From Acidobacteriota bacterium (GTDB lineage Bacteria > Acidobacteriota > Terriglobia > Terriglobales > Acidobacteriaceae): DNA of 64,000 nucleotides. Positions 7,180-14,123 of this stretch are shown here, one piece after another (positions within the stretch are counted from its first letter, which is position 1; every line of letters starts with the position of its first letter). The notes beneath the pieces were generated by a model. The model did no database searches. It had not been told where the DNA came from and saw only the letters and a program-made list of their open reading frames with translations. The stretch is taken from the NCBI GenBank assembly GCA_003225055.1, contig QIAU01000148.1, forward strand, positions 1-64,000, read 5' to 3'. The position numbers and the translations under genes were made by a program.

Positions 7180-7585
7180 CCTAATGATTCCCTTCTGCCG
7201 TGCCGAAGGCATTGCCATCGTGCCCCTGGAGTCCACTGGCGCGCGGTTTTGTCGCGGGGAACCGTCGTCGCCAGGATTACGGCGAGACCAGCCGCGCCAA
7301 GACCGATGACTACGCGCACCAGCTTTATTACCAGGATTCGGACTTTCAAACCGTCGATCGCATAACCGAAGTCGCGCGGCAACAAGGTGTGTCGAATGCG
7401 CAGATTGCGCTGGCGTGGCTCCTCGGCCAGCCCGGAGTCACGGCTCCGATCATTTGTCGCCAGCAAGCCCGGACAATTGGAAGATCTGGTCAAGGCGGTG
7501 AACCTAAAACTGAGCCAAGAGGAGTTGAAGAGCTTATCTGAACCGTATCGGCCCCATGTTGTTCTGGGGCATCACCGGAAGGTCT
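7180..7585 (+). pseudogene. Aldo/keto reductase remnant
   Basis: The C-terminal part of an aldo/keto reductase broken over three frames. MIPFCRAEGIAIVP (from 7183) shifts near 7221-7226 into WSPLARGFVAGNRRRQDYGE, which continues through ARQQGVSNAQIALAWLLGQP and VTAPI. It shifts again near 7455 into ASKPGQLEDLVKAVNLKL, SQEELKSLSEPYRPHVVLGHH. The N-terminal half with the catalytic Tyr/Lys is missing. The order and identity of these motifs are characteristic of the family; two frameshifts plus truncation make it a pseudogene. Confidence 0.8.
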
Positions 7586-7589
7586 CAGG

Positions 7590-8098
7590 CAGCGGGTCGC
7601 TTAGCTTCCTCTATTTTCCGCCGAAGACGCGGCTGGCCGCCTCCGGGAGACGGGCAAGGAGACGGGGGGTAAGCTCGTCTCTACCCTAACGACGGGAAAG
7701 ACTTGACTTGGGGCAGTCCACAAGCCCAAGAGCCTACAAAGCGTGGCAAGCGTTCCGCCCCAGGTGGGCGAGACCCAGATCGCCCGGCATCAGTAAGGCC
7801 GGGTGATGCCAATCGATTCCGTGGATTCCCCATCATCAGGTCGGCTCGCCCTGTTTCGGGGCGGCTACCGTCTGCTTTCCGCTCCCCCAATTGGAACCCT
7901 TGGCCGACAGGGGAGTCGCCCCAGTTTGGTTACGACGGGAGGAAGAATTTGTTAAAACGTCAGTGAATGAAGAGGTTGTAAGAATCCCACGCAAGTTACT
8001 GTGCCTGTTCGGAATAGCACCTTGGTACCGTCTCTAGTACCTTGGTTACCGGATTCCCCTTAAAGCGCAACTCGTCTGCATAAATACCGCTTCTAATT
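7590..8098. other. Intergenic stretch without recognisable gene
   Basis: About 500 bases between the aldo/keto reductase remnant and the structured leader. Reading frames here lack recognisable protein features. A near-direct repeat (ACCTTGGTACCG / ACCTTGGTTACCG) lies around 8020-8052. The promoter of the HTH-pilM operon probably lies in or just after this region, but I could not place it with confidence. Confidence 0.5.
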
Positions 8099-8366
8099 GG
8101 GTCCACTTCGGAGGGGACCACAATAGGTAGCACCAACCCGCATTTACCCTCGGGTGACTTTCCAGAAAAACCCTAAAAAACCCAGTAAAACGCGGAAATA
8201 CACTCCCCGTCAGGAGCCTTCGGGCTTGAGATATGCTTTCGACACAAACAACTCCCCAACGGAGTCATATGGCCGAAGTTTTAAAGCTGATTTCTCCAAT
8301 CCGCGGCATGGCAGCCGGTCTAAACACGGCGCCCTACGTGGTTTTTCTGTGGAAGGGGCGCTAACT
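8099..8366 (+). promoter_or_regulatory. Structured 5' leader of the HTH-pilMNOPQ operon
   Basis: Several nested helices can be drawn. (1) GGTCC 8100-8104 with GGACC 8115-8119, closed by CT(TCGG)AG. (2) An imperfect long hairpin: CTTCGG 8218-8223 with CCGAAG 8273-8278, ATATG 8231-8235 with CATAT 8266-8270, and ACTCC 8251-8255 with GGAGT 8261-8265. (3) GCGCCC 8329-8334 with GGGCGC 8356-8361, which would bury the GGAAGGGG ribosome binding site (8351-8358) of the HTH gene. This is the layout of a leader that controls translation. No known riboswitch consensus was recognised; the c-di-GMP GEMM-I core words are absent. Confidence 0.45.
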
Positions 8367-8603
8367 ATGGTCGACGCACGCGAAGTGATGAACATCCGCC
8401 AGGCGTCGCAGTACCTGGGGGTGAGTCCGGACACGCTGTACAAGTACGTGAACGAACAAAAAATTCCCGCCTTTAAGCTGGGCAACCGCTGGCGCTTCAA
8501 GAAGTCGAAGCTGGACCAGTGGATGGAAGAGCAAAGTGCCGGTGTGGAAGCGCGGGGCCAGAAGAAACCGAAAGCTGCGGCGCGGGCCGCAAGCACAACC
8601 TAG
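8367..8603 (+). CDS. Excisionase/MerR-type helix-turn-helix protein
   Basis: 78 aa. Residues about 8-55 form an HTH_17 (excisionase-family) domain: NIRQASQYLGVSPDTLYKYV, then KIPAFKLGNRWRFKKSKLDQWM. The tail is Ala/Lys-rich. The ATG at 8367 is chosen because GGAAGGGG ends 8 bases upstream; the open frame extends further 5' into the structured leader but has no protein-like features there. It ends 11 nt before pilM and heads the pilMNOPQ operon, so it may be an operon-specific regulator or a DNA-binding accessory (inference). Confidence 0.85.
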   Translation: MVDAREVMNIRQASQYLGVSPDTLYKYVNEQKIPAFKLGNRWRFKKSKLDQWMEEQSAGVEARGQKKPKAAARAASTT

Positions 8604-8614
8604 AAGGCGGGCAC

Positions 8615-9670
8615 ATGTTTGGATTCGGATCGAAATCGATAGTTGGCCTGGATGTGGGCTCCTCCAGCATCAAGGCGGTGGAGCTGAAGCGCACCCGGGC
8701 GGGCATTGAGGTCGCACACCTGGGGCTGGAACCCCTGGCGTCCGATATCGTTGTGGACTCGATGATCGTGGACTCGGGCACCGTCTCCAGCGCCATCTCG
8801 AAGCTGTTCGCGGAGAACCAGATCAAAACCAAAGCCGTGGCGACGGCCGTCAGCGGCCACTCGGTGATTGTGAAGCGCATCCCGCTGCCTTCGATGAGCG
8901 ACCAGGAATTGTCGGAAGCGATTCCCAAGGAAGCGGCGCAGCACATTCCCTTTGATCTGGCGGACGTGAACCTGGATTACCAGATTCTTTCCGAAGACGC
9001 CAGCAGCCCGACCATGGATGTCCTGCTCGTGGCCGTCAAGAAAGACAAGATTTTGAATTACACCAACGTACTCTCGATGGCGGGCAAGACGCCGGCTATT
9101 GTGGACATCGACTCCCTCGCCCTGCAGAACTGCTACGAATACAACTACGAGCCCGCCCCCGGGCAAGTCGTAGCGCTGCTCAATCTGGGCGCCAGCGTGA
9201 TGAACATCAACATCGTAAAAGGCACGACCCCGTTGTTCCCGCGAGACGTCAGCGTCGGCGGGCACCAGTACACCGACTCGCTGCAGAAGGAACTCGACTT
9301 GAGTTTTGAGGATGCCGAGGCGCTGAAGCTGGGCAGGAAGGTGGGCACGGTCAGCGAAGACGCCAAGACGCCTATCCTGCAGCAGGTGACCGAAATCATC
9401 GTGCTGGAAATTCAGAAGACTTTCGACTTCTTCCGCGCCAGTGCAGCGGGAGAGCACATCGAGAAGATTTATCTGGCCGGAGGTTCCTCCAAGGTTCCGG
9501 GATTGGTAGAGGCGCTGCGCCAGGAGTTTTCCCTGCCGGTAGAGATCTTCAATCCGTTCCAGAAGATCATGCCGCCCGCAGATGGAATGTCGGCGGATTT
9601 GATCGAGCAGAACGCCGGCCAAATGGCCGTCGCCGTGGGCTTGGCCCTGAGGAGCTTTGACGATCTATGA
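8615..9670 (+). CDS. pilM: Type IV pilus assembly protein PilM
   Basis: A cytoplasmic actin/FtsA-like ATPase of 351 aa that binds the N-terminus of PilN and anchors the pilus alignment complex. The first nucleotide-binding motif is visible as VGLDVGSSSIKAVELKR (about residues 9-25), a second phosphate motif as ALLNLGASVMNINIV (about 188-202) and an adenosine motif as IYLAGGSSKVPGL (about 284-296). The start ATG 8615 gives the canonical MFGFGSKS beginning. It overlaps pilN by four bases, as expected for co-translated partners. Confidence 0.96.
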   Translation: MFGFGSKSIVGLDVGSSSIKAVELKRTRAGIEVAHLGLEPLASDIVVDSMIVDSGTVSSAISKLFAENQIKTKAVATAVSGHSVIVKRIPLPSMSDQELSEAIPKEAAQHIPFDLADVNLDYQILSEDASSPTMDVLLVAVKKDKILNYTNVLSMAGKTPAIVDIDSLALQNCYEYNYEPAPGQVVALLNLGASVMNINIVKGTTPLFPRDVSVGGHQYTDSLQKELDLSFEDAEALKLGRKVGTVSEDAKTPILQQVTEIIVLEIQKTFDFFRASAAGEHIEKIYLAGGSSKVPGLVEALRQEFSLPVEIFNPFQKIMPPADGMSADLIEQNAGQMAVAVGLALRSFDDL

Positions 9671-10251
9671 TTCGAATCAACCTGCTGGGTTCACCCAAAC
9701 CGAAAAACAAGCGCGGCTCTCCGGCCGTCGTCGAAATGAACATCGGCGGCGGGGTCAGCCCGGCGATTAAAGTGGCGGCCGTACTGTTCGTTGCGGCTGT
9801 GCTCAATGCCGGCTACTGGTACCGCCTGGACAGCCAGAAGCAGAAGATCGCCAAGCAGATGGCCGTCGCCACCCGCCAGAACCAGGAGCTGTCTCAGGTC
9901 AAGGCCCGCTACCTGGAGCGGCAGCGCCAGGCGGAGAACTATAAGCGCCGCGTGGACGTGATTGATCAGCTGCGGGCGAACCAGAGCGGCCCGGTCAATC
10001 TTCTGAACATGGTCGGCAGCACGGTCAACAACACCGAGGCGGTGTGGCTTAACACCATGAAAGACGAGGGCAACGCGATCAATATTGAAGGTTTGGCCCT
10101 GAGCCAGGACGCAGTGGCCAACCTGATCACGAATCTGCAAAAGACTGGTTTCTTCCGGAACATCGAGATCAAGGAAACCTATCAAGACGAGTCCGTGAAA
10201 GACATGCAGGCGTTCCTGTTCACCTTGTCCTGCGAGAAAGGCAAGTCCTAG
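9667..10251 (+). CDS. pilN: Type IV pilus assembly protein PilN
   Basis: A bitopic inner-membrane protein of 194 aa. The conserved cytoplasmic N-terminus MIRINLLG is the PilM-binding peptide. A transmembrane helix follows at about residues 35-52, then a coiled coil (about 55-105) and a periplasmic ferredoxin-like domain with WLNTMKDEGNAINIEGLA. It starts inside the pilM stop (ATGA) and is followed after 12 nt by pilO, its heterodimer partner. Confidence 0.95.
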   Translation: MIRINLLGSPKPKNKRGSPAVVEMNIGGGVSPAIKVAAVLFVAAVLNAGYWYRLDSQKQKIAKQMAVATRQNQELSQVKARYLERQRQAENYKRRVDVIDQLRANQSGPVNLLNMVGSTVNNTEAVWLNTMKDEGNAINIEGLALSQDAVANLITNLQKTGFFRNIEIKETYQDESVKDMQAFLFTLSCEKGKS

Positions 10252-10263
10252 AGGCTGGAAACT

Positions 10264-10887
10264 ATGGGGACCTTCACCGATCTGTCAGATATCAAGCAAT
10301 GGGGGATATTGGTTCTAGGCGCCGGGGTGCTCTCCGCGGCTCTGTACTTCACTATGTTCAAGAGCCAGGTGGACGCCAACCAGCAAGCGCAACAGCAATT
10401 GGATGCCAAAATGCGCGAGAACGCGGAGCTGGAAGCCTATCGTCCCAAGCTGGCGGAAATCGATCGGCAGCTCGCCAGCCTGAAACAGCAATTGGAAATT
10501 GAGCGTCGCATCGTGCCGGACGAAAAGGACGCGGACGATTTCATCCGTATGATGACGGCCGAAGCCATGAAAGCCGGCATCGAAGTCCGCCGTTTCACGG
10601 CCAAGCCGATCGCCAACAAGGATTTTTATACCGAGCTTCCCTTCGAACTGGAAGTCGACGGCCCGTATTACTCGATGCTGAATTTCTTCGATCGGGTAGG
10701 CAAGTTGGAGCGGATCGTGAATGTGTCGGGGCTGCTGGTGGCAACGAAGAACAAGCCGCAGGAAGCTAAGGTCAAGCACACCTATAACTACGCGGCCGGC
10801 GAGAGCGTTGTGGCGACCTGTACGGCAACGACTTTCTTCAGTCATGACTTGGTGCCGCCCGCAAGCGCGCCGGCAGCAAGGCGGTAA
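10264..10887 (+). CDS. pilO: Type IV pilus assembly protein PilO
   Basis: A 207-aa inner-membrane protein pairing with PilN. It has a short cytoplasmic N-terminus, one transmembrane helix at about residues 16-35, a coiled coil (about 37-85, rich in Gln/Glu) and a periplasmic domain with YTELPFELEVDGPYYSMLNF, which is characteristic of PilO. ATG 10264 follows a GAGG-containing spacer. It lies between pilN and pilP in the standard order. Confidence 0.95.
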   Translation: MGTFTDLSDIKQWGILVLGAGVLSAALYFTMFKSQVDANQQAQQQLDAKMRENAELEAYRPKLAEIDRQLASLKQQLEIERRIVPDEKDADDFIRMMTAEAMKAGIEVRRFTAKPIANKDFYTELPFELEVDGPYYSMLNFFDRVGKLERIVNVSGLLVATKNKPQEAKVKHTYNYAAGESVVATCTATTFFSHDLVPPASAPAARR

Positions 10888-10896
10888 GGGAAACGT

Positions 10897-11919
10897 ATGA
10901 AGCTGACGACAGGCATTCTTCTGACGACGATGATGATGATGACGGGCGCTGCCTTTGGGCAGAATCCCAACCTCATCCAGAGCACGCAGGACAAACTCAA
11001 CGCGGCCGAGCAGCAGAAGGTGGCGAAAGAGAATGAAGCGCTGGGTACGCCCCAATCGCAGAGCCAGACTTCGGCCAAGCCCGGCGCCAAGCCGTCTCCT
11101 GCGGGCGCGAAGGCAGCTCCTAAGGCCGCCAAGCCCTTGATCAGGGTGGCACCGGCAACAAAGTCTCCGGTTACGGCAGCGAAGCCCGCTACACCGACAA
11201 GCAAGCCCGCTGGCCCGCCGACCAGGACTGTCGTCGTAGCCGCCAAACCGGCCGCACCAGAAACCAAGCCGGCTGCCATGGCGAAACCGGCGGTTCAGGG
11301 GACCAAAGCTGCCGCTAAGCCAGCCACTGCTGCGGACAAGAAGGATAACAAGACTGCGCAAGTTGCTCCCAGCAAGCCGGCGCCGACCAGAATCGCGGTT
11401 CTGCCGGTGGCGCCCTTGCCCCAGCAAGGTGCTCAGAAGACAGCTTCCGCTGCCAAGAAGCCGGCGGCCAAAGCGGCCACACCGTTTGCTCCACATAAGG
11501 CAGCCAAGGAACCGCCTAAACCGGCTCCGGCTGCAACCAGCCAGGCTGCCTCCAAAGAGGGGGCCGCGGCTGAGACGCCCAAGGCGAAAAAGATCATCAC
11601 TGCCGAAGGGCGTCGCGATCCTTTCGTCAGCCCGGTTGTTTCTCGTGCTACCGGTCCGGTTTGCAGCGTGGGGAAACGCTGCCTGGCCATCGATCAGATC
11701 CTGGTGCGCGGGGTGGTCAAGTCTGAGACCGGCATGATCGCGGTGGTGGTCAACTCCATGAATAAGGCATATTTCCTCAAGGAAAATGACCCGGTATTCA
11801 ACGGATATGTCCTGCGCATCACCGGCGATTCGGTGGTCTTCAAAGAGACTTACCAGGATCGTTTGGGCAAGGAACTGACGCGCGAGGTCGTGAAGAAGCT
11901 TACGACGCCGGCTGTCTAA
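10897..11919 (+). CDS. pilP: Type IV pilus assembly protein PilP with long linker
   Basis: 340 aa, about twice the usual PilP length. The N-terminus is a cleavable-type signal (a Met/Thr-rich core ending TGAAFGQ) with no lipobox Cys, although PilP is a lipoprotein in Proteobacteria. Residues about 35-225 are a low-complexity Ala/Pro/Lys linker. The conserved PilP domain is at the C-terminus (about 230-335): EGRRDPFVSPV, CLAIDQILVRGVV, AYFLKENDPVFNGYVLRI. It links PilNO to the secretin PilQ. The long linker could span a thicker periplasm (inference). It starts 9 nt after pilO. Confidence 0.9.
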   Translation: MKLTTGILLTTMMMMTGAAFGQNPNLIQSTQDKLNAAEQQKVAKENEALGTPQSQSQTSAKPGAKPSPAGAKAAPKAAKPLIRVAPATKSPVTAAKPATPTSKPAGPPTRTVVVAAKPAAPETKPAAMAKPAVQGTKAAAKPATAADKKDNKTAQVAPSKPAPTRIAVLPVAPLPQQGAQKTASAAKKPAAKAATPFAPHKAAKEPPKPAPAATSQAASKEGAAAETPKAKKIITAEGRRDPFVSPVVSRATGPVCSVGKRCLAIDQILVRGVVKSETGMIAVVVNSMNKAYFLKENDPVFNGYVLRITGDSVVFKETYQDRLGKELTREVVKKLTTPAV

Positions 11920-12008
11920 GCGGCACGGGTGCGGCCGAAGAACCGCAAGAACGGAATTGAAAGACACGTCGCGAGCCAAAACGGCCCGCGCGTGTGGGGA
12001 GAGGGGAA

Positions 12009-14123
12009 ATGCGAAAGCAACTGCTGGCAATTATGCTACCGCTGCTGATCGTAAGCTGGATGGTGGCGGCTGAGACCGAAAGCACGTCAGGCACAGGTAC
12101 GGTGGCCCAGGCGGCAAGCAAGCGCGCTGCGCTGAAGCACGTAGACGTGGTGCGCGGGGACAACGAGATCAGCATCGAGATCACCGCCGTGGGCGATGTG
12201 ACTCCGAAGCTGAGCACGTTGGACCGGCCCAATCGCGTGATCCTGGACCTGCCCAACACAGTGGCCGTGACCTCCAGGCGTCAGATCGCCGTCGACAGCG
12301 ACGGCGTCAAGATGGTGCGCGTGGGGATGGATGGCCAAGTGCCGCCGACCACCCGGGTTGTCGTCGATGTGGAACAGGCCATTAAGTGTGACCTGGTGCC
12401 GGACGGCGACAAGCTGGTGCTCAAGCTGCACACCAACGAATTCGTGGCCAAGGCAGCCCCCGCTCACAAAGCGGCCAAGCCGGCGGCGCCTCGACTGGTG
12501 ACGGTCAGCCAGCCGGTTCCGACCGTGAGCGCGCCCAAGCCGGCAGAGGAAAAGAAGCTGGTGACAAGCGTTCCGGCGACTACCCGATCGGCGAACGACT
12601 TTGTTTTCGTCGAGCCGTCGTATCAGCCCAAGCCCAGCGCCGCTGAGGCGAAAAAGCCGGTTGTAATCGAACCCTCGGTCCGGGCCGGGGAAGCCGCTGC
12701 CAAGTTTGGTGACAAACCCGCCGCCGAACTGTTGCCCAAGCCCAGCGCTTCTCTCGAAGCCCCGGGACAGGCCGCGAACGCTCCCCAGCCGGCCGTCAAC
12801 ATGGCTGCCGAGCAGAAGTCGCAGATAGGACAGCACAACTTGAACGGTCCCAAGTACACGGGCGAGCCGATTTCGGTCAACCTGAAGGATGTGGATCTGA
12901 AAGACTTCTTCCGCCTGATTCATGAAATCAGCGGACTCAACGTGGTCCTCGATCCCAATGTAAAAGGCACGCTGACCATCGTGCTCGATGACGTGCCATG
13001 GGATCAGGCCCTCGATATCGTTCTGAAGAACAACGATCTTTCTCGCCAGCTCGAAGGCAACGTTCTGCGTATCGCTACGGTCGAGACGCTGAAGAAGGAA
13101 GCAGAGGGTCGCCGGGCGCAGGTCGAAGCCGAAGCTCTGGCGGTGGAAAAAGTCTCGGTGACGCGCTTCCTGAGCTATGCGCACGCCAAGGACGTGGTGC
13201 CTACGGTAAAGAATTTCCTGAGCCAGCGCGGTGACGTGATCGCCGATGAGCGCACCAATGCTCTGATCATCCAGGACATTCCCAACGTAATGCCGCCGAT
13301 CGATCGGCTTCTGCAGCAGTTAGACCGCAAGACGCAGGAGGTCGAGATCGAGGCGCGCGTAGTTGCGGCGACCCGCAGCTTTGCCCGCGATATCGGTACC
13401 CAGCTCGGTCTGGGTTGGGGCAACTCGGCCACGACCGTGGGTGGCGCCGGCGCCGTAGGAACTTCTCCGGTTGGAGTCTTTGGCCTCCAGCCACAATACA
13501 CGATCGTTGGTACGCAAGCGCCAGGCGGAAGCACCTTGACACAAATTCCGCTGTTTTCGAACCTGGGGGTAACCAGCCCGTCCAGCGGATTCAGCTTCCT
13601 GAACTTCAGCCGCAAGTACCAGATCGACGCGATCCTCACCATGGCCGAATCGCGTGGCTTGTTGAAGATCCTGTCGCGTCCGCGCGTGGTAACGCAGAAC
13701 AACATCCAGGCGCTGGTACGGCAGGGCGTACGCGTCCCCATCGTGACCCAGGCTCAGTTGGGCGGACCGCCCACCGTGACTTATGTAGACGCGTTCCTGC
13801 GGCTGACGGTTACTCCGCAGATCACGTCGGAGAACACGATCTTCCTGAACGTCGACGTGGAGAATACGACGCCTGACTTCGGACGCACCGTGCAGGGTAA
13901 CCCGACTCTGATCACGCAGCAGGCCACCACCCAGGTCCTCGTGACCGACGGTGGCACGGTGGTGATTGGCGGGGTTATCCAGACTCAGAACAGCGTGAAC
14001 GTTTCGCAGGTGCCTCTGCTGGGCAACATCCCGGCCCTGGGCAACCTGTTTAAGCGGCGCAGCGTCAGCACCTCGAACCAGGAGCTGATCTTCTTCATCA
14101 CGCCACGCATCATTCAGACATAG
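12009..14123 (+). CDS. pilQ: Type IV pilus secretin PilQ
   Basis: The outer-membrane secretin channel for the pilus, 704 aa. In order it has a signal peptide (residues 1-20), one AMIN peptidoglycan-binding domain (about 35-130, with LDRPNRVILDLPNTV), a Pro/Ala/Lys linker, a secretin-TonB N-domain (about 283-350, VNLKDVDLKDFFRLI), an N1/KH-like domain and the secretin barrel (about 440-704, with GGTVVIGGV and VPLLGNIPALGNLFKRR). ATG 12009 is preferred to an upstream GTG because it begins MRKQLLAIMLP, a signal peptide. It is the last gene of the operon. Confidence 0.96.
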   Translation: MRKQLLAIMLPLLIVSWMVAAETESTSGTGTVAQAASKRAALKHVDVVRGDNEISIEITAVGDVTPKLSTLDRPNRVILDLPNTVAVTSRRQIAVDSDGVKMVRVGMDGQVPPTTRVVVDVEQAIKCDLVPDGDKLVLKLHTNEFVAKAAPAHKAAKPAAPRLVTVSQPVPTVSAPKPAEEKKLVTSVPATTRSANDFVFVEPSYQPKPSAAEAKKPVVIEPSVRAGEAAAKFGDKPAAELLPKPSASLEAPGQAANAPQPAVNMAAEQKSQIGQHNLNGPKYTGEPISVNLKDVDLKDFFRLIHEISGLNVVLDPNVKGTLTIVLDDVPWDQALDIVLKNNDLSRQLEGNVLRIATVETLKKEAEGRRAQVEAEALAVEKVSVTRFLSYAHAKDVVPTVKNFLSQRGDVIADERTNALIIQDIPNVMPPIDRLLQQLDRKTQEVEIEARVVAATRSFARDIGTQLGLGWGNSATTVGGAGAVGTSPVGVFGLQPQYTIVGTQAPGGSTLTQIPLFSNLGVTSPSSGFSFLNFSRKYQIDAILTMAESRGLLKILSRPRVVTQNNIQALVRQGVRVPIVTQAQLGGPPTVTYVDAFLRLTVTPQITSENTIFLNVDVENTTPDFGRTVQGNPTLITQQATTQVLVTDGGTVVIGGVIQTQNSVNVSQVPLLGNIPALGNLFKRRSVSTSNQELIFFITPRIIQT

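Follow-up and report, generated by a model that had tools for sequence, protein, structure and literature searches.

The window, that is, the whole stretch of 64,000 nucleotides analysed here, carries an HTH-pilMNOPQ operon in which the first gene encodes a small DNA-binding protein and the following genes encode components of the type IV pilus machinery (Table 1). The HTH gene begins with the ATG at 8367, and the ORF in the pilP position is without a Pfam match. Upstream of the operon, a short ORF at 7200–7541 has a translation that by eye resembles a C-terminal segment of an aldo/keto reductase (DRITEVARQQGVSNAQIALAWLLGQPGVTAPI) and is apparently the remnant of a decayed gene. DNA upstream of homologous HTH genes was gathered from relatives, giving 131 distinct upstream regions. 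The 81 relatives with TATGCT within 420 nt before the HTH gene were designated group A, and the other 50 leaders were treated separately. The genome falls within Acidobacteriota; the named homologous loci belong to Acidobacteriaceae, Candidatus Sulfotelmatobacter, Candidatus Korobacter, and other Terriglobia MAGs, with the window's own genus represented by one further genome. A literature search found no paper describing this promoter or leader.

Table 1. Features of the HTH-pilMNOPQ operon and its upstream region, in window coordinates.
Feature	Position	Strand	Basis
Tandem site ACCTTGGTACCGTCTCTAGTACCTTGGTTAC, made of two TAGYACCTTGGT repeats at a distance of 20 bp; probably bound by a regulator	8019..8049	+	Conservation in relatives
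Second conserved upstream site, ACCACAATAGGTAG in the window, consensus ACCACAACATATAG	8117..8130	+	Conservation profile, 81 relatives
Upstream promoter element: three A-tract direct repeats (starts ~8165, 8175, 8187), 10–12 bp spacing	8160..8199	+	Conservation profile, alignment
−35 position	8205..8210	+	TTGACC/TTGAGC in relatives; degenerate CCCCGT in the window
−10 region TTGAGATATGCT	8226..8237	+	Conservation, alignment; exact hexamer register uncertain
Putative transcription start, conserved CAC 8243–8245	8242..8246	+	Position relative to the −10 region
Putative 5' untranslated leader of HTH-pilMNOPQ, ~123 nt	8244..8366	+	Lies 3' of the promoter; excess folding across the family
P1 hairpin, ACUCC 8251–8255 / GGAGU 8261–8265	8251..8265	+	Predicted fold; homologous hairpin supported in relatives
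P3, UUUCU.CA 8291–8298 / UG.GGAAG 8348–8355 (part of the SD), weak	8291..8355	+	Predicted fold; compensatory changes in sister genera
P2 hairpin, CCGCG 8301–8305 / CGUGG 8337–8341	8301..8341	+	Predicted fold
Shine-Dalgarno (SD) sequence GGAAGGGG	8351..8358	+	Sequence; CUGUGGAA(A/G)GGG kept in comparison with the same-genus genome
HTH_17 (MerR-like/excisionase-type) DNA-binding protein, 78 aa, operon gene 1	8367..8603	+	Pfam HTH_17, 1.4e-18; TIGR01764
pilM, pilN, pilO, ORF in pilP position (10897–11919), pilQ secretin	8615..14123	+	Pfam

The most prominent feature upstream of the operon is a conserved block at 8157–8245, which is essentially ungapped across the 81 relatives. It consists, in order, of TTCCAGAAAA, AAAACCC, and AAAACgCGGA, with their A-tracts 10–12 bp apart, followed by TTGACC or TTGAGC and then GGTTGATATATGCTCAGnACAC. 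The A-tract positions mostly carry 1.4–2 bits of information, with alignment gaps in just 2 of 63 rows, and the bases between the tracts (CCC, CGGA) are conserved too. The spacing of these elements is rigid. When 85 leaders were anchored on the A-tract motif, TATGCT lay exactly 71 nt downstream in 67, at 61 or 70 nt in four, and was absent from 14, while 40 of 81 had T[TG]GA[CG] 27 nt ahead of TATGCT, no other distance occurring more than once; the invariance of TATGCT in group A is partly built in because this hexamer defined the group, and the 71-nt distance and the spacing tests are less affected. Among the 50 leaders outside group A, TTGAC was found exactly 25 nt upstream of 23 of 37 TATAA sites (any other distance: one). 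More distant relatives carry TTGACA-N19-TATAAC at the promoter position, and visual inspection of the DNA upstream of the HTH gene in further families of the class shows CTTGAC after repeats of the AAAACC type. The promoter is present in a single copy per genome, and a sequence-only model of it found one strong match in the window's own genome (E 4.6e-16; next 0.25). A generic promoter scan of the region detected no promoter, and a scan of its + strand detected no terminator.

This rigid spacing, together with a lack of excess RNA folding across the promoter region in relatives (z −0.10 ± 0.14), identifies the block as promoter anatomy. A −35 and a −10 element at fixed distance, as in sigma-70-type promoters, are found in relatives, and the window keeps the −10 side only. 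A sigma-54 promoter was also considered and was rejected on the GG/GC spacing, which by eye differs among relatives. Since the block is read as a promoter, the mRNA would start near 8244, and 8099–8243 is probably promoter and upstream DNA. The sequence-only reading had treated all of 8099–8366 as a structured leader that might hide the ribosome binding site; on the present evidence its upstream part, up to ~8243, would not be transcribed leader. The putative start lies upstream of 8330, the limit that the same reading had set for its own proposal. The −35 position of the window is degenerate, so that its promoter probably needs an activator. In distant-group promoters (e.g., L032, L034, and L106), TTGACA and TATAAC are 19 bp apart, which is longer than the usual 17. 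Promoters that MerR-type proteins activate typically have a spacing of this length, and the operon's first gene codes for a MerR-like HTH protein.

The architecture resembles that of sigma-70-type promoters with phased A-tracts or an UP element in having A-tracts 10–12 bp apart upstream of the −35 and −10 elements, but it differs in the 19-bp spacing of the distant group, the degenerate −35 of the window, and the conserved inter-tract bases. Such phasing is typical of curved or UP-type promoters, and the tracts lie directly upstream of the −35 position, as would be expected if they served only as curved DNA or as a site for the alpha subunit of RNA polymerase, with no binding by the HTH protein. 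This explanation has somewhat less than an even chance of being correct, and the conservation of CCC and CGGA between the tracts argues against it. A plausible binder of the repeats, by analogy, is the HTH_17 protein of the operon itself. Binding by this protein is a reasonable idea because BldC, a MerR-like protein of 68 aa, binds head-to-tail to short direct repeats that are rich in A and T (Schumacher 2018, PMC5859096). Like BldC and Xis, the HTH_17 protein is a small, single wHTH protein. Unlike BldC, for which the repeat is AATTXXXX(C), it would recognize an AAAACCC-like repeat, of which one full site per genome was found.

Farther upstream, the tandem site at 8019–8049 is unique in the window and reaches up to 97% identity in the upstream regions of relatives. 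The best matches in relatives begin at window position 8019, and information content rises at 8041–8049. The site, which is kept in many relatives, lies ~200 bp before the putative transcription start. A degenerate pattern of its half-sites had 7 matches in the genome, compared with 20 for a reversed control, and therefore no regulon can be claimed for it.

The helices on which the sequence-only reading was based can be compared with chance expectation. That reading had paired GCGCCC at 8329–8334 with GGGCGC at 8356–8361, covering the SD, and had described a three-helix hairpin at 8218–8278. The letters are as it gave them, including those of the SD, and 8218–8278 does fold as a three-helix hairpin (−15.4 kcal/mol). 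The SD helix is at chance level; two of the 74 leaders, one being that of the window, have a local 6-bp helix with the SD, and in the sole same-genus genome the pairing has two mismatches. Among shuffled leaders, 27% (for 8244–8346) and 58% (for 8099–8346) could form six or more uninterrupted base pairs with the SD region. Mean SD accessibility in the window matches the null (rank 0.52, or 0.32 under another definition of the SD). The pairs of the 8218–8278 hairpin, which overlaps the −10 box of the promoter, are kept at 59.5% in the 81 relatives and 59.9% in shuffles, and the folding energy of 8099–8390 is unremarkable (z −1.57). Homologous leaders gave no covariation for any of these helices. 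They are chance pairings that are not conserved, and a riboswitch built on them is refuted.

A different fold emerged from the leaders of relatives. As a group, the downstream 110 nt of these leaders fold more strongly than shuffled sequences (z −1.24 ± 0.13, n = 74), compared with z values of −0.10 for the promoter, −0.27 for DNA further upstream, and −0.22 for the start of the coding region. Structure prediction by RNAalifold on all leaders was spoiled by misalignment and was replaced by analysis of subgroups, by covariance models, and by arm-swap tests, in which one arm of a helix is paired with the partner arms of other species. The best supported element is P1, a 5' hairpin (arm-swap p 0.0005), which was supported within two subgroups as well. 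The closing arms of the second hairpin, P2, reached p 0.001 under most of the settings tried, without correction for their number; no signal was obtained with arms at fixed positions, and it appeared once the arms were defined from either end of the segment that separates the anti-SD from the SD. The third helix, P3, pairs UCUCCC with the SD. Its swap test gave p 0.008 overall in one window setting and p 0.59 overall with narrow arms, for which subgroup A1b alone passed (p ~0.03). In an A1b alignment that was not fitted to structure, six pairs showed changes on both sides, compared with 2.9 in shuffles (19/500), and four of the six belong to P3. A model-fitted alignment, which leans toward structure, contained double changes in 16 of 23 pairs, compared with 8.2 in shuffles, and the covariance model carries the fold over to subgroups A1a and A1c. 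Compensatory variants of P3 include UCUCCCA/UGGGAGA (L073), UUCCGCAA/UUGCGGAA (L075), and CUCUCGA/UCGGGAG (L116). A covarying helix that includes the SD is thus present in sister genera, in the ~115-nt leader that follows the conserved promoter. The broader claim that a leader helix touches the ribosome binding site ahead of HTH-pilM consequently holds for sister genera, by way of this UCUCC(C)/SD pairing and helices other than those first named, and is unproven for the window.

The extent to which this fold is retained and hides the SD varies. Mean ranks of SD accessibility were 0.62 for A1a, 0.33 for A1b, 0.34 for A2, and 0.32 for the window, and hiding of the SD, as modelled, is not general among relatives. 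Seven relatives have leaders of only ~31–48 nt that are without these helices. In these lineages (L098, L104, L118, L119, L122, L131, and L027) the promoter is retained while most of the leader has apparently been deleted, and they constitute natural variants for leader function. A separate motif, approximately TTTCCCCCCGAGAAAGCAGAGGA, directly follows TATAAC in L029, L032, L034, L035, L106, and other distant leaders, and CCCC[CT]GAG is found in 21 of the 50 leaders outside group A. As a group, these leaders show no excess folding (z −0.2), and the motif may therefore serve for binding of a protein or an RNA and not form a hairpin.

In the window itself, the P1, P2, and P3 layout is predicted but weak. 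The leader (8243–8366) is not more folded than shuffles (z −0.06), and the P3 duplex is worth only −6.0 kcal/mol. Of the five P1 pairs, the same-genus genome has lost one, and P2 there has undergone a compensatory change to CUGCG/CGCAG. The leader covariance model built on relatives did not recognize the window leader, and its application to the whole genome revealed no convincing second site. The failure of the model on the window, the limited occurrence of SD hiding, and the seven short leaders together indicate that the leader fold is lineage-variable. A role confined to stabilizing or insulating the mRNA by a 5'-terminal hairpin, with no regulatory function, is possible but has distinctly less than an even chance. 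The position of P1 a few nucleotides from the putative start and its standing as the best supported helix are consistent with such a role, as is the existence of short-leader lineages, but the covariation of P3 specifically involves the SD.

The pairing of a pyrimidine-rich strand with the SD in sister genera is reminiscent of SD-occluding leaders, including the FourU and ROSE thermometers, and the compensatory changes in P3 are consistent with a leader that opens with heat or upon protein binding. Nevertheless, no Rfam family was matched here, the pairing is strong in some relatives only, the SD is not generally hidden, P3 is weak in the window, and the fold is lost in the seven short-leader relatives. 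In addition, CsrA (PF02599) is absent from the genome, which is 98.7% complete, and the leader does not qualify as CsrA-regulated. An RNA-thermometer-like or protein-regulated leader is accordingly considered unlikely.

Regulation of the operon by a riboswitch or other ligand-sensing RNA spanning 8099–8366 appears highly improbable. Pilus operons are under riboswitch control elsewhere, as in Geobacter metallireducens, where the pilM riboswitch of the GEMM-I/c-di-GMP-I family (RF01051) is a cGAMP-controlled transcriptional ON-switch (PMC9262584), and the leaders of relatives are structured, as a riboswitch would be. Both that element and the leader described here stand in front of pilM-type genes, but the G. 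metallireducens riboswitch has a terminator, whereas here the + strand of the region has none and GEMM-I is not matched. Rfam searches of the window, at gathering and permissive thresholds, and of 20 relatives returned nothing relevant, and GEMM-I had no match in the window, in relatives, or in the whole genome at E ≤ 1. The leader is therefore not the G. metallireducens pilM riboswitch. These searches bear out the earlier report that the GEMM-I core is missing, and they give no support to the cyclic-dinucleotide switch that had been suggested alongside it. By eye, the leader alignments contained no highly conserved loop or junction block of the kind expected of an aptamer, and the conservation profile is low after ~8260. 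Moreover, the upstream half of the proposed RNA is promoter, and seven relatives do with a leader of ~31–48 nt.

The explanation that we consider likely is that HTH-pilMNOPQ has a dedicated, conserved promoter followed by a lineage-variable leader that tunes translation. Under this explanation, 8157–8245 would constitute a sigma-70-type promoter, one per genome, with three A-tract repeats, in phase with the helix, on its upstream side. The A-tracts and the sites at 8117–8130 and 8019–8049 would be the likely control points, acting through transcription initiation. The degenerate −35 would probably call for an activator, and the small HTH_17 protein is a candidate binder of the repeats, as suggested by the BldC and Xis analogy. 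Transcription from ~8244 would yield a leader of ~123 nt. Its counterpart in sister genera forms P1 and then P2 closed by P3, an arrangement that would lower translation, and the window would have the same layout in weak form. A more elaborate scheme is conceivable for part of the Terriglobales. In it, P1, P2, and the SD-pairing P3 would make up a structured leader of an undescribed kind that switches translation of the pilus machine in response to a signal; the BldC-like protein of the operon would bind the single-copy promoter in head-to-tail fashion, and the window would retain a weakened version. We regard this scheme as quite doubtful.

The claim of a riboswitch is thus replaced by a map of the probable control of the genes for the type IV pilus machinery, in a phylum of soil bacteria that has received little study. 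In each genome the map places a single conserved promoter; to this it adds three more conserved stretches of DNA and, as the product of the operon's leading gene, a small DNA-binding protein. As a modest lead, the leaders worth testing for an SD-pairing fold are those of sister genera rather than that of this genome.
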